Shown piece after piece: positions 4,238-27,278 of a stretch of 33,887 nucleotides of DNA. The notes beneath the pieces are model-generated. The model searched no databases and was not told the origin of the DNA. It saw only the letters and a program-made list of their open reading frames with translations. The DNA is taken from assembly GCA_016933395.1 (NCBI GenBank), contig JAFGBA010000084.1, forward strand, positions 1 to 33,887. The letters are read 5' to 3'. A program made the position numbers and the translations under genes. Numbering within the stretch: position 1 is the stretch's first letter; every line of letters starts with the position of its first letter. The DNA comes from Sedimentisphaerales bacterium. GTDB lineage: Bacteria; Planctomycetota; Phycisphaerae; Sedimentisphaerales; SM23-30.

Positions 4238-6019
4238 CTATTCCAGCGGCAGGCGGAGTTCGACGATGGTGCCTTTACCGAATGTGCTTTGTAGTTGCAC
4301 CTGAGCGCCAAGCTGTTCAGCGGCGTGTTTGACAATAGCCAGCCCCAAACCGGTGCCGCGAATGCGAGCATCACCGCTGCGTGAAACATCAGCCTGATAA
4401 AATCGTTCGAAAACCCGTTTTTGGTCTTCCGGCCGGATGCCGCAACCGGTGTCCTCAACGCTGATGCAAACAACGTCCTCTTCTCGGGTCAAACGACAAA
4501 TTATCGTGTCCCCTGAAGCCGTAAACTTGACCGCATTATCGAGCAGGTTTTGCACAATCAGGCTTAAAAGCCGCCGATCGGTTTGTAAAATAATCGAAGG
4601 ATTAACCGGAACAAGCTGAAACGTGAGTTTTTTCTCCTCAGCACGAACAGCATAAGGCTCCGCCAGCGTCTGTATAAACGAATTAAGTTGCACATCTTCA
4701 CATTGCAGACGATACCGGTCGTTTTCCACGATTTGCAAATCCAGTAAATCACGCGTCATTTCCTCCAGGCGGCCGACTTGACGATGAAGAATATCTATCA
4801 GGCGGGCGCGATCGCGCGGATGTTCACCGTCGCCTTCCTGAAGCGAATCCACCGCTGCCCGTAATGTCGCCACGGGTGTTCTCAGCTCATGTGAGGCGTT
4901 GGCCACGAATTCTGATTTCATGGCCGCAGTGCGCACCAGTGCAGTAACATCGTGCAATACAATCAGCCCTGCGATGCCGTCCTGTCCGGTGGTTCCAAAC
5001 CGATGAGCATAAACCTCCAGATGATGTGTCTGTCCCAAATAGTTGATAGTCACCTGCCTGCCTGCCGGCGAACCTCCCGCAGGCGTTTCATAATATATGT
5101 CCACAATGTCGGCATACCGCACCACCGCCTGCAGGTGCTTACCCTGCACCCTCGCATCATCCGGATGAATAATATTCATCGCCGCCTCGTTCATCAGCAC
5201 AATGCAATCGCCGGCGTCTATTGCCAATACTCCCTCGCGCAAATTCGCCACCGTCTGCATCAGATTATCCCGTTGAGTGTTGCTGCGAGAGATTTGGCGG
5301 GCCAAATGATCACGCATATCGTTGAGCGCCCGGCCCATTCGGGCCATTTCGTTCGTTCCAATAGTAACGGTTCGAGCGTCCAAATTGCCATCCGCAATGG
5401 CCCGCGCTGCGGTAGTTATTTTTCGCAACGGCGCGTACCAGAACCGTTCGATCAACGCCGTTGCAATTCCTGCGGATAAAAGAACCACTACAGGCAGCCA
5501 AGCCGCCGTTTGGCCGACGAATTCCTTGTTATCTGCGGGAGTTTCAACCGGCTGGGACAACCGCACAACCCCAATAATTTGCTCCCCCTGATAAATCGGC
5601 AAAGCGGTGTAACGTAGGCGCCGTTTAATCGTCTCGCTCCAGCGGGTGGCGTCGCCCAATTGACCCTTCATCGCCTGAGTTAATTCCGAGCGTTCAGGGG
5701 TAAAATGGTTCTCCATATCCATCGGATCGCTTTGGTTATCGCCCAGCACCTTGCCATCGGCCCCCACAACCGTCAAACGTATATTGTCCGCCAGCGGAAT
5801 GGATTTCACTAGTCCCTGAATATTTCCATTGGAAATGGCCCACTGGTTTTCTATAGTGTGCCGCAAGATTCTCAGTTGGGCGTCAAAATCCTTATTGTGC
5901 TCCTGTTGATATTGTTTTTCCAGGGGATAATAAATCAGCAAAACGCTCAGCACTAGCGCCAGAGTTATTCCCAATGCGCTACTGAGATAGACTTTGAAGA
6001 TGTGATTATACCTTTTCAT
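4238..6019 (-). CDS. phoR: Phosphate regulon sensor histidine kinase PhoR (HAMP, PAS, HisKA, HATPase)
   Basis: 593 aa; H-box 'SEFVANASHELRTPVATLRAAVDSL', N-box 'LIVQNLLDNAVKFT', G-boxes 'VEDTGCGIRPEDQKRVFERFYQ' and 'GTGLGLAIVKH'; adjacent to phoB and divergent from pst genes. Confidence 0.93.
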   Translation of the reverse strand: MKRYNHIFKVYLSSALGITLALVLSVLLIYYPLEKQYQQEHNKDFDAQLRILRHTIENQWAISNGNIQGLVKSIPLADNIRLTVVGADGKVLGDNQSDPMDMENHFTPERSELTQAMKGQLGDATRWSETIKRRLRYTALPIYQGEQIIGVVRLSQPVETPADNKEFVGQTAAWLPVVVLLSAGIATALIERFWYAPLRKITTAARAIADGNLDARTVTIGTNEMARMGRALNDMRDHLARQISRSNTQRDNLMQTVANLREGVLAIDAGDCIVLMNEAAMNIIHPDDARVQGKHLQAVVRYADIVDIYYETPAGGSPAGRQVTINYLGQTHHLEVYAHRFGTTGQDGIAGLIVLHDVTALVRTAAMKSEFVANASHELRTPVATLRAAVDSLQEGDGEHPRDRARLIDILHRQVGRLEEMTRDLLDLQIVENDRYRLQCEDVQLNSFIQTLAEPYAVRAEEKKLTFQLVPVNPSIILQTDRRLLSLIVQNLLDNAVKFTASGDTIICRLTREEDVVCISVEDTGCGIRPEDQKRVFERFYQADVSRSGDARIRGTGLGLAIVKHAAEQLGAQVQLQSTFGKGTIVELRLPLE

Positions 6020-6710
6020 TTTCCGGGAGAGCCAGGCGATACCCCAGCCCCCTGACGGTTTCTATAAGATGGCGAGCGTCGCCGAGTTTTCGCCGCAGGG
6101 CGGTAAGATGAACATCAATGGTGCGGTCGGTGACAATGGCGTCCTGCCCCAAGGCGTGATCAATCAATTGGTTGCGGTTAAGCACCCGTCCTCGCGCCGC
6201 GATAATGGCGCTAAGCAACCGAAACTCCGTCAATGTTAAACTTACTTCCTTATCATTAACCGTAACACGATGCTGTTGCGTGTCGATATTGATCGGACCG
6301 GCGCTGAGAAGCGCGCCATTGCCGGTTCCCATCGGCTGGGCGCGACGAAGCATCGCACTGACACGAGCGACTAATACTGACATACTAAATGGTTTGGTGA
6401 CATAATCGTCGGCGCCGGTTTGCAATCCGACAATAACATCGGCATCCTCGGTCCGGGCGGTTAGCATAATCACCGGCGTTCGCGCCAAACGAGGATTATT
6501 GCGCATCTGCCGTAATACCTCAACCCCGTTCATGCCCGGTAACATGATATCCAAAAGCACCAGGTCCGGAGGTTCCGTCTGCACCCGCCGCCAGCCCTCG
6601 GCGCCGTCATGGCAAACCTCCACCTGATAGCCTTCGCGCTTAAGCCGCAGGGCCGCCAATTCGGCCATATCCGTCTCGTCTTCAACCAGTAGAATGCGTT
6701 TTTTGCTCAT
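6006..6710 (-). CDS. phoB: PhoB-family response regulator (receiver + winged-helix DNA-binding domain)
   Basis: 234 aa; 'ILLVEDETDMAELAALRLKREGY', 'PDLVLLDIMLPGMNGVEVLRQMR', 'YVTKPFSMSVLVARV', C-terminal 'VTDRTIDVHLTALRRKLGDARHLIETVRGLGYRL'; overlaps phoR start by 14 nt. Confidence 0.95.
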   Translation of the reverse strand: MSKKRILLVEDETDMAELAALRLKREGYQVEVCHDGAEGWRRVQTEPPDLVLLDIMLPGMNGVEVLRQMRNNPRLARTPVIMLTARTEDADVIVGLQTGADDYVTKPFSMSVLVARVSAMLRRAQPMGTGNGALLSAGPINIDTQQHRVTVNDKEVSLTLTEFRLLSAIIAARGRVLNRNQLIDHALGQDAIVTDRTIDVHLTALRRKLGDARHLIETVRGLGYRLALPENEKV

Positions 6711-6773
6711 TTGAAAGGTGATTATAATCCGAGACTAAACAATCACAATAGTTTACGAAAAAACTAATTTAAA

Positions 6774-6829
6774 CTTAGCTTAATCTTAACATAATCTTAA
6801 ACATTGGGAAATATATTCTTAACATTATT
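6774..6829 (+). promoter_or_regulatory. Candidate Pho box cluster A (11-bp phased CTTAA repeats)
   Basis: CTTAGCTTAAT (6774), CTTAACATAAT (6785), CTTAAACATTG (6796), CTTAACATTAT (6818): starts separated by 11, 11 and 22 nt, in the phoB-pstS intergenic region. Confidence 0.75.
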
Positions 6830-6847
6830 CCGGCAATATGATGACGC

Positions 6848-6891
6848 CTTAACGAAATATTAATGTGATCTTGATAAAACCCTAAGCGAAG
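6848..6891 (+). promoter_or_regulatory. Candidate Pho box cluster B (11-bp phased repeats closer to pstS)
   Basis: CTTAACGAAAT (6848), ATTAATGTGAT (6859), CTTGATAAAAC (6870), CCTAAGCGAAG (6881): four consecutive 11-bp units, more degenerate than cluster A. Confidence 0.6.
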
Positions 6892-6966
6892 ACTACTAAG
6901 CTCTTTGCAACGCTGAAGATGGGCTTTGGCGAAAAATGTGTAACGCAAAAGTTTAGGAGATCTAAA

Positions 6967-7791
6967 ATGACAAAAAAAATTATCCTTTTGATTGCGGTGT
7001 CGGCCATGGTTTTTGGCGTTCAAATGGCGCCGGCGGCGGAAAGACTGGAAATCGAAGGTTCCACGACGGTAGGCCCGATTGCTGACGCCTTTGCCGAGGC
7101 CTTCAAACAAATGCAACCGGATGTGGATATCACGGTGAAAAAGACCGGCAGTGGTGATGGCTCCGCCGCATTAATAGACGGCCGCTGCTCTATCGCCAGC
7201 ATGAGCCGGTTCATGAAGCCCAAAGAGTTCAAAGACGCCGTGGATAAAGGAATCATGCCCGTCGCTCACGTCATCGCGATGGATGGCGTATGCGTCGTGG
7301 TTCACCCCTCCAATCCGGTCAGCGCCCTGACCAGCGGCCAGATTAAAGACGTCTATATGGGTAAAATCACCAACTGGAAGGAGCTTGGCGGTGCGGATAT
7401 GCCCATCGTCGCCATCACTCGCGACACATCATCCGGTACCTATGAGACATTCCACGAACTGGTAATGAAAAAGGAAAAAATGGCCGGTGCCGTGGAAACC
7501 GTCAGTAGTAATGTCCCGGCGCAAAATCGCGTAAAAACCACCCCTGGCGCTATCGCTTATGTGGGCTTGGGATTTCTGGACGGCGTTAAAGCTTTAAAAG
7601 TCGATGGCGTGGCGCCCACCAAACGCTCTATTGCCGCCGGGACATATCCCGTAGCCCGCCCATTGTACCTGTTCACCAATGGCTATCCCAAGCTTGGTTC
7701 ACTGGTGCATCAATTTTGCACGTTTTATTTGTCGGAAGCGGGTCAGGAAATTATCGAAGAAAAAGGGTTCGTACCCCTGACGAATTACTAA
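6967..7791 (+). CDS. pstS: Phosphate ABC transporter substrate-binding protein PstS
   Basis: Start at 6967 with SD 'aggaga'; signal peptide MTKKIILLIAVSAMVFGVQMAPAAE; 'IEGSTTVGPIADAFAEAF', 'TRDTSSGTYETFHELV', 'TPGAIAYVGLGF'. Confidence 0.95.
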   Translation: MTKKIILLIAVSAMVFGVQMAPAAERLEIEGSTTVGPIADAFAEAFKQMQPDVDITVKKTGSGDGSAALIDGRCSIASMSRFMKPKEFKDAVDKGIMPVAHVIAMDGVCVVVHPSNPVSALTSGQIKDVYMGKITNWKELGGADMPIVAITRDTSSGTYETFHELVMKKEKMAGAVETVSSNVPAQNRVKTTPGAIAYVGLGFLDGVKALKVDGVAPTKRSIAAGTYPVARPLYLFTNGYPKLGSLVHQFCTFYLSEAGQEIIEEKGFVPLTNY

Positions 7792-7804
7792 CAAAAAAGA
7801 AGTT

Positions 7805-8779
7805 ATGGCGAATCAAACTCCGCAATCAACGAAAGTGGCCGACTTCGATCGGCCGCTTTTACTTACTCCCGGCCAGGACTGGGGAAATTACCTCATTAAT
7901 ATACTGGGCCAGGCCCTGTTGTTTTTGATTACTTCTCTTAGTGTTGTGGCGGTGTTATTGATTTTCTTTTTCATTATACGAAAAGCTTTACCGTTTTTTT
8001 TAAAACATGGCGTTATGGAATTTTTCACCAGTACGGCCTGGTACCCGGAAGGCTCCCCGGCGGAATTCGGAGCCGGAACGTTAATGGCCGGTTCGTTGTA
8101 CGTTACCGTTGGGGCACTGCTTTTTGCCGTACCCGGCGGCATTCTGGCGGCCGTGTTTCTTAGCGACATTTTGCCGTTCAAAGCCCGGCAAATCGTCAAG
8201 CCGATTATTGAAATCCTGGCGGCAATTCCCTCCGTTGCCTATGGATTTTTCGCCATTATTGTCGTCGCTCCCTGGTTGCAAAAGCACCTGGGATTGGTGA
8301 CGGGGACAAATATCTTCAATGCCTCTCTCATCCTGGCCGTTATGGCCGTACCGACCATCATCAGTGTCGCCGAAGACGCTCTTACCGCCGCCGGACGGGA
8401 GTTGCGGGAGGCGTCTTTGGCTCTGGGGGCCACACGGGCGGAAACCATCATCAAGGTTATGCTCCCCGCCGCCCATAGCGGTATTATTGCCGCCATTATC
8501 CTGGGAATGATGCGGGCCATCGGTGAAACGATGGTCGTATGGATGGCGGCCGGGAACGCGTCGCAAATTCCCACGCCCTGGTGGAATATTTTCGCCTCGG
8601 TGCGAACCATGACCGCGACCATTGCCGGAGATATGGCCGAATCGCCCGAAGGTTCCGACCATCGCCTGGCCCTCTTCGCCGTGGGATTGACGCTGCTGGC
8701 GTTTACTTTCCTTTTGAATCTTGCCAGCGAACATTTCCTGGGGCGGAGCCGTGGCGGAGGAAAGGGGCGTAAAAAATGA
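7805..8779 (+). CDS. pstC: Phosphate ABC transporter permease PstC
   Basis: 324 aa; 'FGAGTLMAGSLYVTVGALLFAVPGGILAAVFLSD', 'ILAAIPSVAYGFFAIIVVAPWL', EAA loop 'REASLALGATRAETIIKVMLPAAHSGI'. Confidence 0.95.
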   Translation: MANQTPQSTKVADFDRPLLLTPGQDWGNYLINILGQALLFLITSLSVVAVLLIFFFIIRKALPFFLKHGVMEFFTSTAWYPEGSPAEFGAGTLMAGSLYVTVGALLFAVPGGILAAVFLSDILPFKARQIVKPIIEILAAIPSVAYGFFAIIVVAPWLQKHLGLVTGTNIFNASLILAVMAVPTIISVAEDALTAAGRELREASLALGATRAETIIKVMLPAAHSGIIAAIILGMMRAIGETMVVWMAAGNASQIPTPWWNIFASVRTMTATIAGDMAESPEGSDHRLALFAVGLTLLAFTFLLNLASEHFLGRSRGGGKGRKK

Positions 8780-10407
8780 CCATTGGTTTCCGTCAGAAAC
8801 TGGACGCCCTGTTCACGAGTATCAGCGGATTGTCCGTCATACTGATGACCGCGGCCTTGGTGTTGGTATTGGGGCCGATTCTTCTCAAAGGCGCTTCGGC
8901 GGTGGTTTTTCGCGGCACGGTGGAATTCCGCCAGATGCAATTGGAATTGTTCGGCCGAGGCAACGTATTGGACATACAGGCCGAAACCACTGAAGTGGAA
9001 GCCGCTCGTAACGAAGTTTATAGTATTATTGACCACTTCAAAAAGGGCATTGACGCCGACGTCCAGATCAAACAGGCTCGCGATATTTACCGTGAATATG
9101 GCCGCCAGTTGCGCCTCCGCCAAATACCGTCGGATAAATTCACCGCTTGGCGACAAAAGGTGCGAAAATTACGTGATGCACTGGAAACGGCTTATACCAC
9201 TTCAGACGAAAAAGAGGCCTTGGAACAACTCGATTTCGTCCTTTCGCAGCAGAATATTCCCGAAGTTGATGATACCGCCGCCGGCCAATATTTCCAGATG
9301 GCGCGTGATTATCGCAAAATCGTTACGGAAGTAGGTCTGGACCATAAAGAAGAATACGCCGATAAATTTAAACAAGTGGAGGAAATTATCAAAGATATCT
9401 TTGGCCCACGACCCGGTGAATCCACTATTCTTATGGCCAGCGAACAATTTGGCATGACTCGCTGGGATCGCACCCTGTTTCACCTTAACCGTCTTTTATG
9501 GGTGGAGGAATGGGTCGAGAAGAAACCCGGTGAGCCGCTGGTTAAGGTGCAACGGCCGCGGGTCGAACAGTTTGCCGGTACGGAAATGGTCAAAGTATTT
9601 GACTTGATGGAAGATAATCTCCAAGCCATGCAGCACCCGAAGTTGACGATTTATTGGCAGTATTTTTTTGACGGCGACAAAACCACGGGGCACTTTTTCG
9701 GCGGCGTCGGCCCGGAAATTCTCGGCACTCTGTTACTGACCATTTTATCCATGCTGTTTGCTTTTCCCCTGGGCGTCATTAGTGCCGCATATCTTATCGA
9801 ATGTGCCGGCGATAATCTGGTTATACGCATCATCCGCACCTGCATCAATACGCTGGCGGGTGTGCCCAGTATCGTGTTTGGCCTGTTTGGTCTGGCTTTT
9901 TGGGTTCCGATGATCTCTACAATATCGGGGAATCCGGCCGGTTCCAGCATTATGGCGGGTTCGTTAACCCTGGCTATGTTGATTCTTCCCATTATTATAA
10001 GAGCCAGCGAAGAGGCGATCCGTTCAGTGCCGCATACCTACAAAGAAGCATCTCTATCGCTGGGCGCCAGCAAACTGCGAACGTTTGTCACCGTGCAGTT
10101 TCCGGCAGCTTTGCCGGGTATTCTTACCGGTGTAATCCTCAGCATGAGCCGGGCCGCCGGAGAAACCGCCCCCATCCTCTTTACCGCCGCTGTTGCCGTA
10201 GGCGGTGTGCCGGATTCTTTATTTCACGGGGGAACTCTGGCTCTGCCTTACTCGGCCTATAATCTGGCCGTTGGCGATGTGACGGGAGCACGTGTGCCGC
10301 ATAACCAGTTTGGCATGGTGATGACCCTGGTGCTGCTGGTGCTGCTGCTGAATATCGTGGCGATTGTTATCCGTTCTCGAGTGTCTAAAAAACTGCTGGG
10401 ACACTAA
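8776..10407 (+). CDS. pstA: Phosphate ABC transporter permease PstA with a large insertion after TM1
   Basis: 543 aa; permease core 'LIECAGDNLVIRIIRTCINTLAGVPSIVFGLFGLAF', EAA loop 'KEASLSLGASKLRTFVTVQFPAALPGILTGVILSMSRAAGETAPILF'; ATGA overlap with pstC; about 260 charged residues between TM1 and the core. Confidence 0.93.
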   Translation: MTIGFRQKLDALFTSISGLSVILMTAALVLVLGPILLKGASAVVFRGTVEFRQMQLELFGRGNVLDIQAETTEVEAARNEVYSIIDHFKKGIDADVQIKQARDIYREYGRQLRLRQIPSDKFTAWRQKVRKLRDALETAYTTSDEKEALEQLDFVLSQQNIPEVDDTAAGQYFQMARDYRKIVTEVGLDHKEEYADKFKQVEEIIKDIFGPRPGESTILMASEQFGMTRWDRTLFHLNRLLWVEEWVEKKPGEPLVKVQRPRVEQFAGTEMVKVFDLMEDNLQAMQHPKLTIYWQYFFDGDKTTGHFFGGVGPEILGTLLLTILSMLFAFPLGVISAAYLIECAGDNLVIRIIRTCINTLAGVPSIVFGLFGLAFWVPMISTISGNPAGSSIMAGSLTLAMLILPIIIRASEEAIRSVPHTYKEASLSLGASKLRTFVTVQFPAALPGILTGVILSMSRAAGETAPILFTAAVAVGGVPDSLFHGGTLALPYSAYNLAVGDVTGARVPHNQFGMVMTLVLLVLLLNIVAIVIRSRVSKKLLGH

Positions 10408-11307
10408 ATGAACATTGATCCAGAGATAAATCCGGAAGAAACCGATATGACGCAAACGCAGATCCCTCAACTTGCAAAAAATAATTCAAGCGTTAGACTT
10501 GCTCAAATGCAGATGTTTTCAGCAGACAGTTACGCCACTCTTGTCGCCGCCGAACCGGCGATTATTACCTCGCACAATTTCTCCCTATTCTATGGCGACA
10601 AAGCAGGCGTCAAAGACGTAACTATGGACATCTATCCTCGTTCCGTCACGGCCATTATTGGACCGAGTGGTTGTGGCAAAAGCACTTTTCTTCGCAGCAT
10701 TAATCGCATGAATGATCTCATCCCCCACACTCGTGCCGAAGGGGGACTAATGGTTAATGGCATAAACGTCTATGACAAACAGATCAATCTGGTCAACCTG
10801 CGTCAACAGGTGGGCATGGTTTTCCAAAAACCCAATCCGTTCCCTAAAAGCATCTATGATAATATCGCCTATGGTCCGCGTCTGCAAAGCGTTAAACGTC
10901 GTAGTGATCTCGATAATATGGTGGAACAATGCCTCCGTAGTGCGGCTCTGTGGGATGAAGTGAAAGATGACCTGAAAAAATCAGCCCTGGCGCTTTCCGG
11001 CGGCCAGCAGCAGCGGCTCTGCATCGCCCGGGCGCTGGCGACCAAACCCAAGGTGCTTCTTATGGATGAACCTTGTTCGGCTCTTGATCCTGTTGCTACC
11101 GGCCGTATCGAAGAACTGATGACCCAGCTTAAAGACACCTATACCATTGTCATTGTCACCCACAACATGCAACAGGCCGCCCGTGTCAGTGAACGTACGG
11201 CCTTTTTCTGCCTGGGTGAATTGATAGAATACGATTTAACGCGGACAATTTTCACCAATCCCTCAATAAAACAAACTGAGGATTATGTAACCGGCCGCTT
11301 CGGCTAA
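10408..11307 (+). CDS. pstB: Phosphate ABC transporter ATP-binding protein PstB
   Basis: 299 aa; Walker A 'GPSGCGKST', signature '[16 protein letters not shown]', Walker B '[13 protein letters not shown]', PstB-typical '[24 protein letters not shown]'. True start may be at 10447. Confidence 0.97.
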
Positions 11308-18903: not shown

Positions 18904-19689
18904 ATGGAAGTTAAATTCGAAATCAAGACCCCTCAGCAGCTTCGTCGTCTTTGGTGTGTCGATGTGGCCCTGGGAGCCATAGCGGCAATCGTTTTGTTAT
19001 TGGCCATAGCCAGCGCCTTCGGGGCTTTTGTTCCACGTGGAACATTTTCCGAGGGCCGCGAGAAGCGAGGGGCCGACGAGGACGCAACTCTGGCGATGGC
19101 CGATTCCCCCTTAGTCACGGAGGCAAAGGCCTATACCGCAAGATGGCTTACACCGCCGCCGCCTCCGCCGCCACCAACAAAACCTACTACAAGACGGGAG
19201 CAAACTCCTCCACCACCTCCACCGAAACCAGTGATACCAGAGCCGGAACCAGTGACGCCGCCTCCACCGCAACCTCCGCCACCAAAAAAGGAGCCGCCTC
19301 CGCCACCGCCATCATTTTCGTTGGTGGCGACGATTGTGGCGGGGAATGGGTATGGCTGGGCATGGGTTCAAAAGCCCGGTAAGCCCGCTAGTGAATTGGT
19401 ATATACGGGAGATGATTTGGATGGTTATACGGTCACGAATATCGAAGAAGGCAAGATGACGGTGTACATCAAGGGGCAAGAAAAATGGCATGAATATAAC
19501 CTGGAAGTGCCCAAGCCGAAGCCGGGCGCTCCGGTAGTCGCATCCTCGCCTCCGCCAACCGTTGCCGGCAGGCCGACACCCGCACCCACACCCACACCGC
19601 CTGCGTCAAGACGGACGCCGCCTTCAAGACCGCCGATAACGAGGCCATCAAGGACAATACCCGATCGTCAACCTCAAAAGGAAAAGTAA
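18904..19689 (+). CDS. GspC/PilP-like type II secretion inner-membrane protein with proline-rich linker
   Basis: 261 aa; single TM 'VALGAIAAIVLLLAIASAFGAF', proline-rich linker, HR-like domain 'FSLVATIVAGNGYGWAWVQKPGKPASELVYTGDDLDGYTVTNIEEGKMTVYIKGQEKWHEYNLE'; first gene of a C-D-E-F order. Confidence 0.7.
   Translation: MEVKFEIKTPQQLRRLWCVDVALGAIAAIVLLLAIASAFGAFVPRGTFSEGREKRGADEDATLAMADSPLVTEAKAYTARWLTPPPPPPPPTKPTTRREQTPPPPPPKPVIPEPEPVTPPPPQPPPPKKEPPPPPPSFSLVATIVAGNGYGWAWVQKPGKPASELVYTGDDLDGYTVTNIEEGKMTVYIKGQEKWHEYNLEVPKPKPGAPVVASSPPPTVAGRPTPAPTPTPPASRRTPPSRPPITRPSRTIPDRQPQKEK
19029..19044. other. Candidate parS (ParB/Spo0J binding) site, perfect 16-bp palindrome
   Basis: TGTTCCACGTGGAACA is its own reverse complement and fits the bacterial parS consensus TGTTYCACGTGRAACA at every position. 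Confidence 0.8.
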
Positions 19690-19764: not shown

Positions 19765-20268
19765 TTACGGGAGCAGCAGACACCATTGATATTTAGAGGA
19801 ACAACGCAGGAATTTGAAGCGAAAAGTAGCGGTTTCCAAGGGGCCGCCGGGGCGACGGCGATAGCTGACGGGAATCGCCGTCCAGGTAATTTGTCTATCT
19901 TCACTGAATCGAAGTGTTATGAATTGGGCGTTCCATTTTTCGATGACGGTAGTTCCGATGGCGTTACCGAGAAAAATTTCCGCAACGTAGCGGCCGGTGC
20001 GGTCATCGTCAGGGAGCAAAAACCCCCGAAGTGTCCGATAGTCTCGAAGGGAAAGGGCCAGCAGGACGTTATCCGTGAGGTTTCTTACGGTGAGGACATC
20101 GTCGGCCTGGCGGGAGGAAAGCCGGTCGGGCGAGAGGATGGCGGGTTTCCGGGATTCAGTGCAGCCGGTTATGGCCCAAAAGAGGGGGCATATTACGATA
20201 AGAATCGCAAAAAGCGATAAATATTTTATGGAGCATTTGAGCAAATGAGCCAGCATGCAAAGTATCAT
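19765..20268 (-). CDS. Hypothetical lipoprotein, antisense within the secretion operon
   Basis: 167 aa; hydrophobic N-terminus 'IKYLSLFAILIVICPLFWAITGC' (lipobox-like, C about residue 36) and a credible soluble domain; the competing + strand ORF 19786-20220 is low in protein-like features. Confidence 0.5.
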   Translation of the reverse strand: MILCMLAHLLKCSIKYLSLFAILIVICPLFWAITGCTESRKPAILSPDRLSSRQADDVLTVRNLTDNVLLALSLRDYRTLRGFLLPDDDRTGRYVAEIFLGNAIGTTVIEKWNAQFITLRFSEDRQITWTAIPVSYRRRPGGPLETATFRFKFLRCSSKYQWCLLLP

Positions 20269-20325
20269 AAGAGCACGACGGTGGAGTCCGCAAGGATTTG
20301 TTGGGCGAGTGGAATGATTTTTTCG

Positions 20326-23300
20326 ATGGAGCGCAGCCGCCGGGTGATGGGGTGGTTGTGCGGATTGATGGCGGTTGTGCTATGTACGGGGATAGTGAAA
20401 GCTCAAGAAAACGTTGGGCCGGAGCCGCCCGCGACTGATTCGCCGGCAACCGAGCAACAGGAAGCACCTGTGGAAGAGCCGGCCGCTTCTGTTGATCAGG
20501 ATCGCATAGCGGAGATCGTGGAAGAACTGGCGGCGGAAACGGGTAAGGAAAATCCCGATAAGGCCAAAATCGAAGCCTTGCAGAAGGAGTTAGATAGTCT
20601 GTTGGAGAAACAGGTGTTAGCAGAGGCTGAACTGCCGGAAGAGCCGGTGGTTTCAAAAGAACAGGCGGCTTTGGAAAACCGTTTGTTTGCTTTGATGGCG
20701 GAGTGGGGTGAAGAAAGTGCAAAAGATCCGGAAAGCGAAAAAACCAAGGCGTTAACAAAAGAAATAGAAGAAATCAGCAAGCAGATAGAGGCTTTGGTTA
20801 TGGCCGAAGCTTCGAAAGAGACTCCGGAGGTCGTTACACCTCCCGTAAAGGAAGAGCCGGTTCGTTCTGCGCCAAGTCGGACGCCTCCGTTTTCAGGGCC
20901 ACAGGCCCCGCCACCGCCGTCACCCGGCGTGCAGCCTGTAGAACCAGAAACGAAGGAACCGGCAACCGAGCCGAAAGAAACAGAAAAATCCGAAAAGCCG
21001 GAGATAAAGACCGCCGCGCCGCCCGGGCCGGATGATGTGATAAAGTTGACGCTGCGGGATAATATGATCGATATCAATTATTTGCTGGAACTCATTGGCA
21101 AGGAAATGGGTTTTATCTTCCTGTACGATGCGATTCCGCCCGCCACGAATGTCAGGATACAGCAATATGGCGACCTTCACCGGAGGGATTTGCTGCCGTT
21201 ATTGGAATCGCTGCTGCGATTCAACGGATTTAGCATGGTGCGGGAGGATCCGTTTATTCGTATTGTGCAAATTGGTCAAGCGGTCAAAACAACGGAAATT
21301 AAAATAGATTATGGCGGTGAAGAGAAGTCGCTGGAACCGGGCGATATGGTAGTGGTGCAGATTTTTGAATTGCAGCATGTTCCTCTGTCTCAGATACAAA
21401 ATATATTAGCGAATTTTACCACGGCCCAGGGGGTTATTCTGCCGGTTCCCACGAATCCGAATATGATGATTATCACGGAATACGCCAGGCGGATGCCGCG
21501 ATTGCTGGAATTGATTGATTTACTGGATCAGCCCGGACCGCCGCGTCGGCTGGAAGTAACCGAGGTGACGTATATTGTAGCGGCGGACGCCGCAACGCAG
21601 TTACAAAATCTGATCCGAGATTTGGGCGAATACACCGCAACTGTATCCAAAGCACCGGTGCCGAGTCGTCGGCAAATCGGCCGGCCAACCACACGTACCG
21701 GACCACGTCCGCCGACACCGCAACCACAGCCTGAGCAGGCGCAGGTGACGCCGGAGGCTGCCGGGCCAGTTATACATGTGGATGAACGGACGAATCGATT
21801 GTTTATCATCGGCACCGATGAACAAATTGAGCAAACCAAGCAATTGCTGACGTTGTTGGATGTCAAGGTGAAGGATCCGGTACTCATACGAGCGTTTGTG
21901 ATGAAGGAAGTAATGCCCAGTGATATCGGTCAGCAAATTATATCTTTGTTGGAAGCCATCGGCGAGGATGAGGAAGATCAGGTTATTCCGACATCCGAAG
22001 AAAAACCGTTGCCACAACCACAACGAACGCCGCGACCCGTCGGACGAAATCGTACAACGCAAACGCAACGATCCCTGATGCAGGCGGGAGAAGGCGGACC
22101 GTTTTTGCTGGGTGATGACCGCACCAATCGTTTGATTGTGGTGGGAAAAGAGTCGCAGATTGAAAAGATACAGGAATTGCTGGAATTGCTGGATGTGCCG
22201 GCGGCGATGATAACCGGGGCACACATTGTTGTTTATACTTTAAAGAACGTCGAAGCGGCTGAGGCGGAGGATATTCTCAACGCCCTGGAAGTTACGCGTT
22301 CCACCGAACGGCCCAACGCCCGCGAACGCGCACGTGGAATAGGACGGCCCGGTCAGCCGACAACGGGATCGGTGAGCGGACAGGTAATGACGGGTGAGGT
22401 GCAGGGGTTGCCGACCGAGGAGGATTTCGAAGTCAAGACGGCCATTCAGGAATCGACCAATCGGTTGTTCGTATTGGCGACCAACAAGCAGCATGAACAA
22501 ATCGCCAATATCATTGAGAAGGTCGATATGGAGCCGCCCGATGATATGGGGGCGATTCAGGTGTATTTTCTGGAAAATCGCGATCCGGAAGAGGTGGCGA
22601 GTATGCTGGAATCACTGCTGGAGTCGGAACAGCGGGATGATAAAGGACAGGTTAATGTGCCGGGCAAGGAAGGGGCCCCGATTGTGGTATCCCTGCCGGA
22701 GATATACGCGGTGGCGGTGCGGGCGTCGGCCAAACAGCATGATAATATCCGCCGACTGGTGGAGATTCTGGACAAGCGTCTGCCGCAGGTGCTGGTGGAG
22801 GCGATTCTGGTGCAGGTGAATGCTGATGATGCGCTGGATTTAGGCGTGAGTTTACAAAATGCTTATGACACCAAGGCCGCGCGTTCCTCCACGCGCATGA
22901 TATCAGGACTGTCACCGTTCGGTGTGGCCGGCTCCACCCTAAGCGTTCCCGGGGCGACCGGTGTGGTTGGGGGCAGTGGCGCAACGCTGGCGTTTTATAC
23001 CGATGATTTGGTTTATGCATCCGTCGAGGCTTTAGAGACCGATGGCAAAGGCAAAGTGGTGTCGATGCCGCGAATTCTTGTTAATGATAACGAGGAAGGA
23101 AAGATCGACTCAAAACGTGAGGAACCAACAACCAAGACAACCGTACCGGCGGGATCGGATACGCCGATTATTGAGTTCGCCGGGTATGAAGACGCGGGCA
23201 CAACGTTAACCATTACTCCCCATATCAGTGAAGGGGATTTTCTCAAATTGGAAATCACACTGAGCGTAAACAGTTTTTTGGGTGAAAGTTCCGGTAGCGT

Positions 23301-23685
23301 CCCGCCGCCAAAATCAACAAATGAAATATCGACCATGGTGACAGTCCCCAACAATACGACCATCGTTCTGGGCGGTTTGACTACGGAAACGACGGGCACG
23401 ACCGTGAACAAGATTCCTTTATTGGGTGATATTCCATTTGCGGGGGCGCTGTTCCGCAATGTAAGTTATTCGCAAAACAAGAACGTGCTTTATGTATTTG
23501 TAAAGGCGAACATTATTCGCAGCGACAAAGGCGGTGAGACATCGTTCGAGGATTTGGACATATTATCGGAAAAACATCGGGAGAAACTCCGTAAACTGGA
23601 AAAAGGGTATGAGAATTTGCCGATTATTCCAGGCATACCGGCGGACAAAAAGGAGGATCGCAGCGTACTGGATGAAGATTATTAA
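20326..23685 (+). CDS. gspD: Type II secretion system secretin (GspD-like), extended periplasmic repeats
   Basis: ORF opens at 20245; likely start 20326 (MERSRRVMGWLCGLMAVVLCTGIVKAQ signal peptide). Secretin core 'VLVEAILVQVNADDALDLGVSLQ', 'TLTITPHISEGDFLKLEI', 'TTIVLGGLTTETTGTTVNKIPLLGDIPFAGALFRN'. Confidence 0.95.
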   Translation: MERSRRVMGWLCGLMAVVLCTGIVKAQENVGPEPPATDSPATEQQEAPVEEPAASVDQDRIAEIVEELAAETGKENPDKAKIEALQKELDSLLEKQVLAEAELPEEPVVSKEQAALENRLFALMAEWGEESAKDPESEKTKALTKEIEEISKQIEALVMAEASKETPEVVTPPVKEEPVRSAPSRTPPFSGPQAPPPPSPGVQPVEPETKEPATEPKETEKSEKPEIKTAAPPGPDDVIKLTLRDNMIDINYLLELIGKEMGFIFLYDAIPPATNVRIQQYGDLHRRDLLPLLESLLRFNGFSMVREDPFIRIVQIGQAVKTTEIKIDYGGEEKSLEPGDMVVVQIFELQHVPLSQIQNILANFTTAQGVILPVPTNPNMMIITEYARRMPRLLELIDLLDQPGPPRRLEVTEVTYIVAADAATQLQNLIRDLGEYTATVSKAPVPSRRQIGRPTTRTGPRPPTPQPQPEQAQVTPEAAGPVIHVDERTNRLFIIGTDEQIEQTKQLLTLLDVKVKDPVLIRAFVMKEVMPSDIGQQIISLLEAIGEDEEDQVIPTSEEKPLPQPQRTPRPVGRNRTTQTQRSLMQAGEGGPFLLGDDRTNRLIVVGKESQIEKIQELLELLDVPAAMITGAHIVVYTLKNVEAAEAEDILNALEVTRSTERPNARERARGIGRPGQPTTGSVSGQVMTGEVQGLPTEEDFEVKTAIQESTNRLFVLATNKQHEQIANIIEKVDMEPPDDMGAIQVYFLENRDPEEVASMLESLLESEQRDDKGQVNVPGKEGAPIVVSLPEIYAVAVRASAKQHDNIRRLVEILDKRLPQVLVEAILVQVNADDALDLGVSLQNAYDTKAARSSTRMISGLSPFGVAGSTLSVPGATGVVGGSGATLAFYTDDLVYASVEALETDGKGKVVSMPRILVNDNEEGKIDSKREEPTTKTTVPAGSDTPIIEFAGYEDAGTTLTITPHISEGDFLKLEITLSVNSFLGESSGSVPPPKSTNEISTMVTVPNNTTIVLGGLTTETTGTTVNKIPLLGDIPFAGALFRNVSYSQNKNVLYVFVKANIIRSDKGGETSFEDLDILSEKHREKLRKLEKGYENLPIIPGIPADKKEDRSVLDEDY

Positions 23686-23799
23686 AGAGAATAGAATACT
23701 GAATGCATCCGGCTTCGTCTTTGACTACGCCGAGACAGGGAAGCCGGAATAAAACACCGGAATCCGGCATTCGCGGATTGATAACGTGATGAGTGATTG

Positions 23800-25491
23800 A
23801 TGAAAGAGAAATTATTGGAGATAGCGCGGCGGACGAAGGTAGTCGATGAAATCGCCTTAAAGGAATTTCTCGACCGGCAGGTGGAAGATGTGCGCCTGGA
23901 TCAGGCGCTATTAAGCAAAAGTCTGTTTTCGGAAGAACAGGTGCTCAAACTTTTTGCGGCATACCTGGATGTGCCCTTTGTAGAGCAAATAAAAGTGGAT
24001 GCGGTGCCGGAGGACTTCATCGCGAAGATTCCTGCATCGTATGCACAGCATCACAGCCTAATCGCCACGACGGCGGAGAACGGCTGCATCACGGTGGCGA
24101 CCAGCCAGCCGTTGAGCATGTACCCATTGGATAACGTAGGCAAGATGCTGGGACGGGCGGTCAAGCCGGCGCTGGCGTGCCGGGCGGCGATTACGGACGC
24201 CATTAACGCCGCCTATGAACAACGTGTTGCCGTATTGGAGGAAGTGGCCGAGGAAATGGATGCACAGAACCTCGAAGGGTTGATCGGGGATGTGGCCAGT
24301 TCCGAGGATCTACTCGACGTGGTGAATCGCCCGCCGGTAATTCGGCTGGTGAATGATATTTTATTCCGTGCTTTGCAACTAAGGGCCAGTGATGTGCATG
24401 TGCATCCGTTCGAGGAAAAAGTCGTGGTGCGTTACCGCATCGACGGATTGCTCTATGACATGCTGTCACTGGACCAGCGGGTATTGCCGGTGGTGGTGTC
24501 GCGCATCAAGGTGATGGCGGGGATGGATATTGCGGAGCGGCGCATGCCGCAGGATGGACGCTGCAGCGTGCGTATCGGGCCTCGGGAAGTTGACTTGCGC
24601 GTTAGTACGGTGCCGACGGCTTACGGGGAGCGGACGGTGTTGCGTTTATTGGATAAGAGCACGGGAATTTATACGCTCAATGATCTGGGCATGAGCGATC
24701 TTGATCTCAAGCGGGTGGATAGCCAGTTGCACCGGCCGCACGGGGTGTTTTTCGTAACGGGGCCGACGGGCAGCGGCAAGACAACGACACTGTACGCCTT
24801 TTTGAAGCGGATTAATTCGGCGGAAAAGAACGTTATCACCATCGAAGATCCGATCGAGTATCAACTCGAAGGCATCAGTCAGATTCAAGTGGCGCATCGC
24901 AAGGGGATGACGTTCGTAACGGCGTTGCGGCACGTGTTGCGACAGGATCCGGACGTCATCATGGTCGGCGAAGTGCGAGACAACGAAACGGCCCGAATGG
25001 TGATTCAATCATCGCTGACGGGTCATTTGGTGTTTAGTACGGTGCATACCAATGACGCCGCGGGCGCCATTACGCGCATGCTGGACCTGGGAGTGGAACC
25101 GTATTTAGTGGCGTCATCAGTGATCGGTGTGCTGGCTCAGCGGTTGGTGCGGCGGTTGTGCCCGGAATGCAAGGAATGCGTGCCGGCGGATTCGGCGAAA
25201 TTGCAGGAAATGGATATCCAGCATCGCGGTATGGAAACAATTTACATTCCCAAAGGGTGCGATAAATGTTTCAATACGGGCTATCGCGGCCGGACGGGTA
25301 TTTATGAATTCATGGTGGTGGATGATCGTGTGCGGCAGTGCATTTATCAACGGGAGACGGCCGGCGCCATCAAAAAAGTCGCCCTGGAGGCGGGGATGAC
25401 CACCCTGCGTATGGATGGAATGATTAAAGTGGAGCAGGGGCAAACAAGTCTGGAGGAGGTGCTGCGCGTGGCGCAGACGGATGAGAATTGA
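23800..25491 (+). CDS. gspE: Type II secretion assembly ATPase GspE
   Basis: ATG 23800; Walker A 'GPTGSGKTTTLY', 'ITIEDPIEYQL', 'LRQDPDVIMVGEVRDNETA', 'HLVFSTVHTNDAAGAITRM', tetracysteine 'CPECKEC...CDKC'. Confidence 0.97.
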   Translation: MKEKLLEIARRTKVVDEIALKEFLDRQVEDVRLDQALLSKSLFSEEQVLKLFAAYLDVPFVEQIKVDAVPEDFIAKIPASYAQHHSLIATTAENGCITVATSQPLSMYPLDNVGKMLGRAVKPALACRAAITDAINAAYEQRVAVLEEVAEEMDAQNLEGLIGDVASSEDLLDVVNRPPVIRLVNDILFRALQLRASDVHVHPFEEKVVVRYRIDGLLYDMLSLDQRVLPVVVSRIKVMAGMDIAERRMPQDGRCSVRIGPREVDLRVSTVPTAYGERTVLRLLDKSTGIYTLNDLGMSDLDLKRVDSQLHRPHGVFFVTGPTGSGKTTTLYAFLKRINSAEKNVITIEDPIEYQLEGISQIQVAHRKGMTFVTALRHVLRQDPDVIMVGEVRDNETARMVIQSSLTGHLVFSTVHTNDAAGAITRMLDLGVEPYLVASSVIGVLAQRLVRRLCPECKECVPADSAKLQEMDIQHRGMETIYIPKGCDKCFNTGYRGRTGIYEFMVVDDRVRQCIYQRETAGAIKKVALEAGMTTLRMDGMIKVEQGQTSLEEVLRVAQTDEN

Positions 25492-25557: not shown

Positions 25558-26778
25558 ATGCCGACGTTTGAATATATTGCGTTGGACGCCCAGGGGCGAT
25601 CCACGAAGGGGAGTGTTACGGCGGAAAGTTCCGCCGCGGCGCGGCGAATGCTGCGCGGTCGGCAACTGCATGCGACGTCGATTAACGCCGTCAGCAGCCT
25701 GGCGCAGGCGGGCGGGATCGAGTTGTCACGGCTTTTCAAGGGGCGTCGTCGGCGGGGAATTCTGGAGTTTACGCGGCAGTTGCAGACCATGATCGGGGCG
25801 GAGGTGCAGTTGACCGAGGCGTTGGGGATTCTTATTGCCCAGACCGATGACAAGCGTTTTGCCCAGGTGTTGCAAAACATTCGTGATGCGGTGGTGTCGG
25901 GTGAGAGTTTCGCCGATGGGTTGCGGGAGTATCCCGGCTGGTTTGATTCCATTTACGTATCCATGATTCGCGTGGGTGAAGTGACGGGCAACCTGCATCG
26001 TTCCCTGGAATTGTTGAGCGCCTATATCGGCAAGCGCCAAAAGCTGGAAGCTCGCGTGAAATCCGCTTTGGCGTATCCGATATTTTTGGCGGCAATGTCG
26101 GTAGTGGTCATTATTGTTTTGATGACATTTATTGTCCCGCGCATTACAAACATGCTGGTGCAAAGCGGAAGACCGCTGCCGGGCATCACCGTTGCTTTAA
26201 TGGGCGTCAGCCATTTTCTGCTTAATTACGGCTGGATTGTGTTGTTGGGGCTTATCGCGGGCATCGGAATGTTGCGGCGCAGTCTGCGGACGCGGACAGG
26301 CCGCATGGCGTTTGATCGCTTATTGCTGAAAATGCCGGTGATAGGTTCATTTTTAAAGCAAAGCGTGGTGGCGCGGTTCGCGACGACGCTGGCGGCATTG
26401 ATTCGTTCGGGAATGCCGATGGCGGATGCTTTACAGGTGGTGGCCGATGTGACCGGCAACAGCATCTTGGCCCAGGCGATTCGTAATGCCCGCGAACGGA
26501 TTATCGCCGGCGCCGATATCGCCACGCCGTTGCGGGAAAGCCACGTAGTCGGGCCGGCCGTGGCGCACATGATTTCCGTTGGCGAGCGAACCGGTGAACT
26601 CGAAAGCATGTTGCTGAATATAGCGGAGAGTCTGGAGGAAAATACCGATTTGGTGGCGCAGCGCATCAGTTCGTTGATAGAACCGGTGATTATCGTGGTG
26701 ATGGCGGCAGTAGTCAGCATTATTATGCTGGGGACGCTGTTGCCGATTCTGCGTATATCTGATGTGGCAGGGATGTAG
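25558..26778 (+). CDS. gspF: Type II secretion inner-membrane platform protein GspF
   Basis: 406 aa; 'MPTFEYIALDAQGRSTKGSVTAESSAAARRMLRGRQL', 'FTRQLQTMIGAEVQLTEAL', 'LIEPVIIVVMAAVVSIIMLGTLLPIL'. Confidence 0.96.
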   Translation: MPTFEYIALDAQGRSTKGSVTAESSAAARRMLRGRQLHATSINAVSSLAQAGGIELSRLFKGRRRRGILEFTRQLQTMIGAEVQLTEALGILIAQTDDKRFAQVLQNIRDAVVSGESFADGLREYPGWFDSIYVSMIRVGEVTGNLHRSLELLSAYIGKRQKLEARVKSALAYPIFLAAMSVVVIIVLMTFIVPRITNMLVQSGRPLPGITVALMGVSHFLLNYGWIVLLGLIAGIGMLRRSLRTRTGRMAFDRLLLKMPVIGSFLKQSVVARFATTLAALIRSGMPMADALQVVADVTGNSILAQAIRNARERIIAGADIATPLRESHVVGPAVAHMISVGERTGELESMLLNIAESLEENTDLVAQRISSLIEPVIIVVMAAVVSIIMLGTLLPILRISDVAGM

Positions 26779-26813
26779 ATGAATTGTTTATAAGAGACTG
26801 GAAGGAGTTGATT

Positions 26814-27278
26814 ATGAATACGGATAAACAAAACAACGTCAGAAGAAGACCTTCCGCGGGTTTTACCTTGTTAGAGCTGATGGTGGTGATCTTGATCATC
26901 GGACTATTGGCGACGGTGGTTACCACGGAAGTTGTCAGTAAAATCGAGAAGGCTCGCGTTGTAAGAGCGAAAGCGGATATAAAACAATTTGAAGATGCGA
27001 TTTTACAGTACAAGATTGACACCGGTCATTATCCGGAAAGCCTCTATGACTTGATTGAGCAACCGGCGGATGAGCCACGTTGGAATCCTGAAGGGTATTT
27101 GAATGTCAATAATATCCCGGCGGATCCATGGGGAGGGGAATATATTTATGTATATCCCGGAGAATACAGCAAGTTCGACATCATCAGTTACGGTCCGGAT
27201 GAGCAGGAAGGCGGCGATGACGATATTTATAATTCCGATGTCGAGGCCGTCAGCAATGAAGGCGAGCCAACGACATAA
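26814..27278 (+). CDS. gspG: Type II secretion major pseudopilin GspG
   Basis: 'SAG|FTLLELMVVILIIGLLATVV', 'ADIKQFEDAILQYKIDTGHYPES', 'PADPWGGEYIYVYPGEYSKFDIISYGPDEQEGGDDDIYN'. Confidence 0.96.
   Translation: MNTDKQNNVRRRPSAGFTLLELMVVILIIGLLATVVTTEVVSKIEKARVVRAKADIKQFEDAILQYKIDTGHYPESLYDLIEQPADEPRWNPEGYLNVNNIPADPWGGEYIYVYPGEYSKFDIISYGPDEQEGGDDDIYNSDVEAVSNEGEPTT

Follow-up and report, generated by a model that had tools for sequence, protein, structure and literature searches.

Is a perfect palindrome within a secretion gene of an uncultured planctomycete a chromosomal parS site, and where does such a site stand in relation to parB? The palindrome lies in a stretch of 33,887 nucleotides (the window), which is contig C136 of a Sedimentisphaerales-like MAG of the Phycisphaerae (G000; 3.37 Mb, 384 contigs, 70% complete). 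The initial annotation had described a 16-bp parS-like palindrome embedded in a secretion gene just after a TM helix, and both its coordinates and its symmetry were confirmed: TGTTCCACGTGGAACA, at window positions 19029-19044, is a perfect palindrome that fits the parS consensus TGTTYCACGTGRAACA, and no other position in the window comes within three mismatches of that consensus. The features of the locus are:

19029..19044, no strand assigned: putative parS palindrome TGTTCCACGTGGAACA, identical to six other loci in the MAG
19029..19049, + strand: putative parS core with the T-rich right flank common to the other copies
18904..19689, + strand: host gene, encoding a GspC-like T2SS protein of the inner membrane (261 aa), whose linker is rich in proline
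20245..23685, + strand: secretin (GspD-like), the downstream neighbour that marks the T2SS operon
23797..25491, + strand: GspE-like ATPase, T2SS context
25558..26778, + strand: GspF-like protein, T2SS context
26784..27278, + strand: GspG-like pseudopilin, T2SS context

The 16-mer spans the last base of codon F42 and codons V43-P44-R45-G46-T47 of the 261-aa ORF, and V43-T47 follow directly after the predicted single TM/hydrophobic segment, so the description of a site in a secretion gene holds. The ORF has no Pfam match, and a scan of the genome contigs with the GspC-like protein found no relatives. The name "GspC-like" is nonetheless reasonable because the ORF lies directly upstream of the secretin, GspE, GspF and GspG genes and because family members encode weak homologues of it. 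Elsewhere in the window (4238-11307), a PhoR/PhoB-like two-component pair adjoins a phosphate ABC transporter cluster consisting of a PstS-like binding protein, two permeases and an ATPase.

Seven perfect copies of the 16-mer are present on seven contigs of G000, together with three one-mismatch copies, while a reversed control pattern gave no copies in the G000 assembly. A third-order Markov model of the G000 genome, applied to four consensus variants, predicts 2.4e-5 copies for the window and 0.0024 for the whole MAG, and the observed number (seven exact and at least one near copy) is far above this chance expectation. One of the one-mismatch copies, TGTTCCATGTGGAACA at C24:1364, has the same flanks as the perfect copies and was counted as an eighth site; on these sequences, G000 very probably has at least eight dispersed parS sites. 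The extended consensus of the copies is roughly AATGTTCCACGTGGAACATTTTT, with AT-rich flanks. In the window copy most of the T-rich flank on the right is retained, with C at 19049 where the other copies have T, and the left flank is TT where the others have AA.

The copies are found in quite different surroundings. Some are within genes, namely those for ValRS, a UDP-GlcNAc 2-epimerase (Epimerase_2), an HI0933-like flavoprotein, the GspC-like protein and one unassigned ORF, and two are intergenic. Translated, the 16-mer gives VPRGT in the GspC-like protein and the epimerase but FHVEH in both ValRS and the HI0933-like protein. Because unrelated genes carry the same 16-mer in different frames, selection acts on the DNA and not on the peptide, and the intergenic copies fit the same constraint. 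In the GspC frame, the exact VPRGT codons have a probability of ~1e-4 under the codon usage of the genome. Conservation of the position in orthologous gspC genes was considered and rejected: in the GspC-like proteins of family relatives a TM helix is present and the linker is variable, and neither the FVPRGT or VPRGT peptide nor the site was found in any of these orthologues. The gspC site is therefore recent and lineage-specific, and the lack of a conserved position was counted against the parS reading. The site probably arose in place, through substitutions that the protein could bear in the rapidly evolving linker behind the TM helix. More widely, this would show that parS evolves within genes, in more than one frame, at places where the encoded protein can accept the change.

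The same motif adjoins parB in close relatives. Of the 42 chromosomal parB loci that matched best, most of them from Planctomycetota/Phycisphaerae, 41 carry it upstream of parB and within 1.3 kb (32 exact, 9 with one mismatch). A canonical ParB (ParB_N + HTH_ParB + ParB_C) is encoded by 8 of 12 family relatives, in which the motif stands just upstream of the gene. Named relatives are Sedimentisphaerales/Phycisphaerae MAGs, and the relatives' ParBs match solved ParB/Spo0J structures. The exact site adjoins parB in seven of these eight genomes, and the remaining one, G003, has three one-mismatch sites. These three variants (locus L138) are identical, TGTTTCATGTGAAACA, and lie about 77-198 bp upstream of parB. 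Their core is CATGTG instead of CACGTG, and the same change occurs at C24:1364 in G000 and at L149 and L154, which suggests that CATGTG is a tolerated asymmetric core variant.

Three lines point the same way: the genome-wide copies, the independence of reading frame and the presence of copies beside parB in relatives. Very probably, the gspC palindrome belongs to a set of at least eight chromosomal parS sites scattered over this genome. The initial annotation had argued that the 16-mer exceeds chance and had called for a genome-wide search, and the seven perfect copies bear it out; its further proposal of an outlying parS, with no parB nearby, also stands, in that no parB is present on the site's contig. 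The identity and the multiplicity of the sites are given by their sequence, and the later steps are modeled on the established ParABS system, in which a ParB-CTP clamp, ParA segregation and SMC recruitment operate (reviewed in PMC7333895). By that analogy, G000 would encode a ParB whose dimer would bind the palindrome, close as a CTP-dependent clamp and slide onto flanking DNA. The T2SS region would then join the ParB-DNA complex, which ParA would segregate and at which SMC would be loaded.

The comparison with better known systems shows both likenesses and differences. The 16-mer is that of parS2/parS3 of Pseudomonas aeruginosa (PMC4368675) and of the P. putida parS consensus (PMC7022226), and G000 resembles these species both in the identical TGTTCCACGTGGAACA and in having several copies per chromosome; in G000, by contrast, AA/TT and a T-run extend the core, and the assembly yielded no parB. 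Of the ten parS sites of P. aeruginosa PAO1, nine are predicted to fall within genes and two are ~3 Mb away from oriC, on the opposite side (PMC4368675). The parB-adjacent clusters of other Phycisphaerae (for example G006 C34, G010 C62 and G007 C132) have the same consensus as G000, and the two parB-proximal copies of G006 also have AA...TT flanks. However, the Phycisphaerae relatives have one to three sites just upstream of parB, whereas the G000 assembly has dispersed copies and no parB-adjacent cluster. The chromosomal ParABS systems of Bacillus and Caulobacter share the motif class, and a ParA/Soj-like ATPase is likewise present in G000; parS is origin-proximal in those bacteria, whereas the G000 assembly offers no demonstrable linkage of the sites to oriC or parB. 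Intragenic parS sites are already known and the coding-sequence location is ordinary; the only unusual feature is the displaced or missing parB. No dedicated ParABS study of Planctomycetota was found among the papers searched, and the present sites would document dispersed intragenic parS in an uncultured planctomycete order.

Searches of the 70%-complete G000 with ParB_N, HTH_ParB and a family-ParB alignment found no ParB, and the result was the same when the ParB_N search was repeated to E = 10. According to the initial annotation, a genome that encodes no ParB would refute the parS reading. Formally that is the situation in the assembly, but it is not decisive for a MAG that is only 70% complete. 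In most relatives, the usual gene order is parB, then an HHH gene, a ~163-aa "MEQW" gene and a DUF4292-like gene, and parB is missing from this conserved slot upstream of HHH in two genomes:

G000, C338:15198-18952 (L128): a divergent mfd gene precedes HHH on an unbroken contig, and an alanine dehydrogenase gene lies between the HHH and MEQW genes
G008, C246:3194-4792 (L130): a divergent fpg gene precedes HHH on an unbroken contig

The failure to find ParB in the MAG and the absence of parB from its slot were both counted against the parS reading. G008 (88% complete, with five or six parS-type sites) is also a genome in which no canonical ParB was found, and G000 and G008 are the two genomes with the most sites; trees of the two did not settle whether they are sisters. 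A 208-aa ParB_N-like protein of G008 was rejected as a chromosomal ParB (25.9 bits, no HTH_ParB). Both genomes keep a ParA orthologue; that of G000, a ParA/Soj-type ATPase at C278:422-1384, matches AAA_31 with 179 bits and is 66% identical to its G006 C45 counterpart. As a separate observation, the 19-kb contig C32 of G008 (L076) has 87-bp perfect inverted terminal repeats (positions 1-87 and the other end), each holding a parS palindrome; the contig is an invertible segment, or else the repeats reflect a turn-around in the assembly.

The strongest competing explanation is that the sites are parS by descent, that G000 and G008 have lost canonical ParB, and that some other DNA-binding protein reads the palindromes, using the same sequence in nucleoid organisation or regulation. 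It draws on the two genomes richest in sites being those without a detected canonical ParB, on the mfd and fpg genes that occupy the slot on unbroken contigs, on the low chance that ParB is missing from both bins by incompleteness (~0.3 x 0.12 = 4%, from the completeness figures), and on the sites nevertheless remaining perfect. However, both MAGs are incomplete, and a parB relocated into the missing DNA explains all of this more simply; moreover, the ParA orthologue has been kept in both genomes and the motif is exactly the one that adjoins parB in relatives. A substitute reader of this kind is judged unlikely. A slightly smaller probability still is given to one specific history, in which parB left its ancestral place and disappeared altogether from both lineages (G000 and G008) while perfect palindromes and ParA persisted; the reader of parS would then have to be strongly diverged or not a ParB at all. 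Loss or replacement of parB, with a substitute reader, is the less probable course, and relocation into unassembled sequence is favoured as the most likely one. The dispersed sites would point to a genome whose parB has moved out of its conserved surroundings.

Two other explanations are much weaker. The palindrome could be the operator of an unrelated transcription factor, parS-like by convergence, and some copies are indeed near gene starts (the C294 copy precedes a polyprenyl synthetase gene by 25 bp, and the C203 copy is in an intergenic region). At least four copies, however, lie deep in Pfam-supported or conserved genes, in arbitrary frames and away from promoters, and the 16-mer is the parB-adjoining motif throughout the Phycisphaerae, which leaves an operator very improbable. 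No more credit is due to a mobile or repeated short palindrome that has spread in the genome. Such an element would account for multiple near-identical copies, but the similarity is limited to 20-28 bp, with nothing common beyond the palindrome and its AT flanks; because it ends there, the copies are neither a duplicated gene nor a mobile element, and the sites also lie within otherwise recognisable ValRS, HI0933-like and epimerase family sequence. Finally, a chance codon accident in gspC, conceivable for the single copy in the window taken alone, was rejected as having a negligible probability in view of the other genome copies.

The initial annotation had also suggested that the site may mark an origin-proximal region. 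The site-bearing contigs of G000, an assembly of many pieces, had too few confident orthologues when mapped onto G006 and G020 to judge this; G006 C34 does carry a T2SS-like cluster, but its orthology to the window cluster is not clear (GspE 41%). The cumulative GC skew of the complete relative G033 gave no readable signal. In the complete order-mate G020 (25% genome sample), parB-parS lies near the cumulative GC-skew minimum and ~1.26 Mb from a dnaA-type gene at the record start, as follows:

G020:C1: parS at 1929585; DnaA_C genes at about 1.2 kb and 3066046

Because the G020 parB-parS locus is near the skew minimum and far from dnaA, parS may mark the origin better than dnaA in this order. 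A search of seven genomes (G000, G006, G008, G015, G020, G024 and G033) found two DnaA_C genes in every one.
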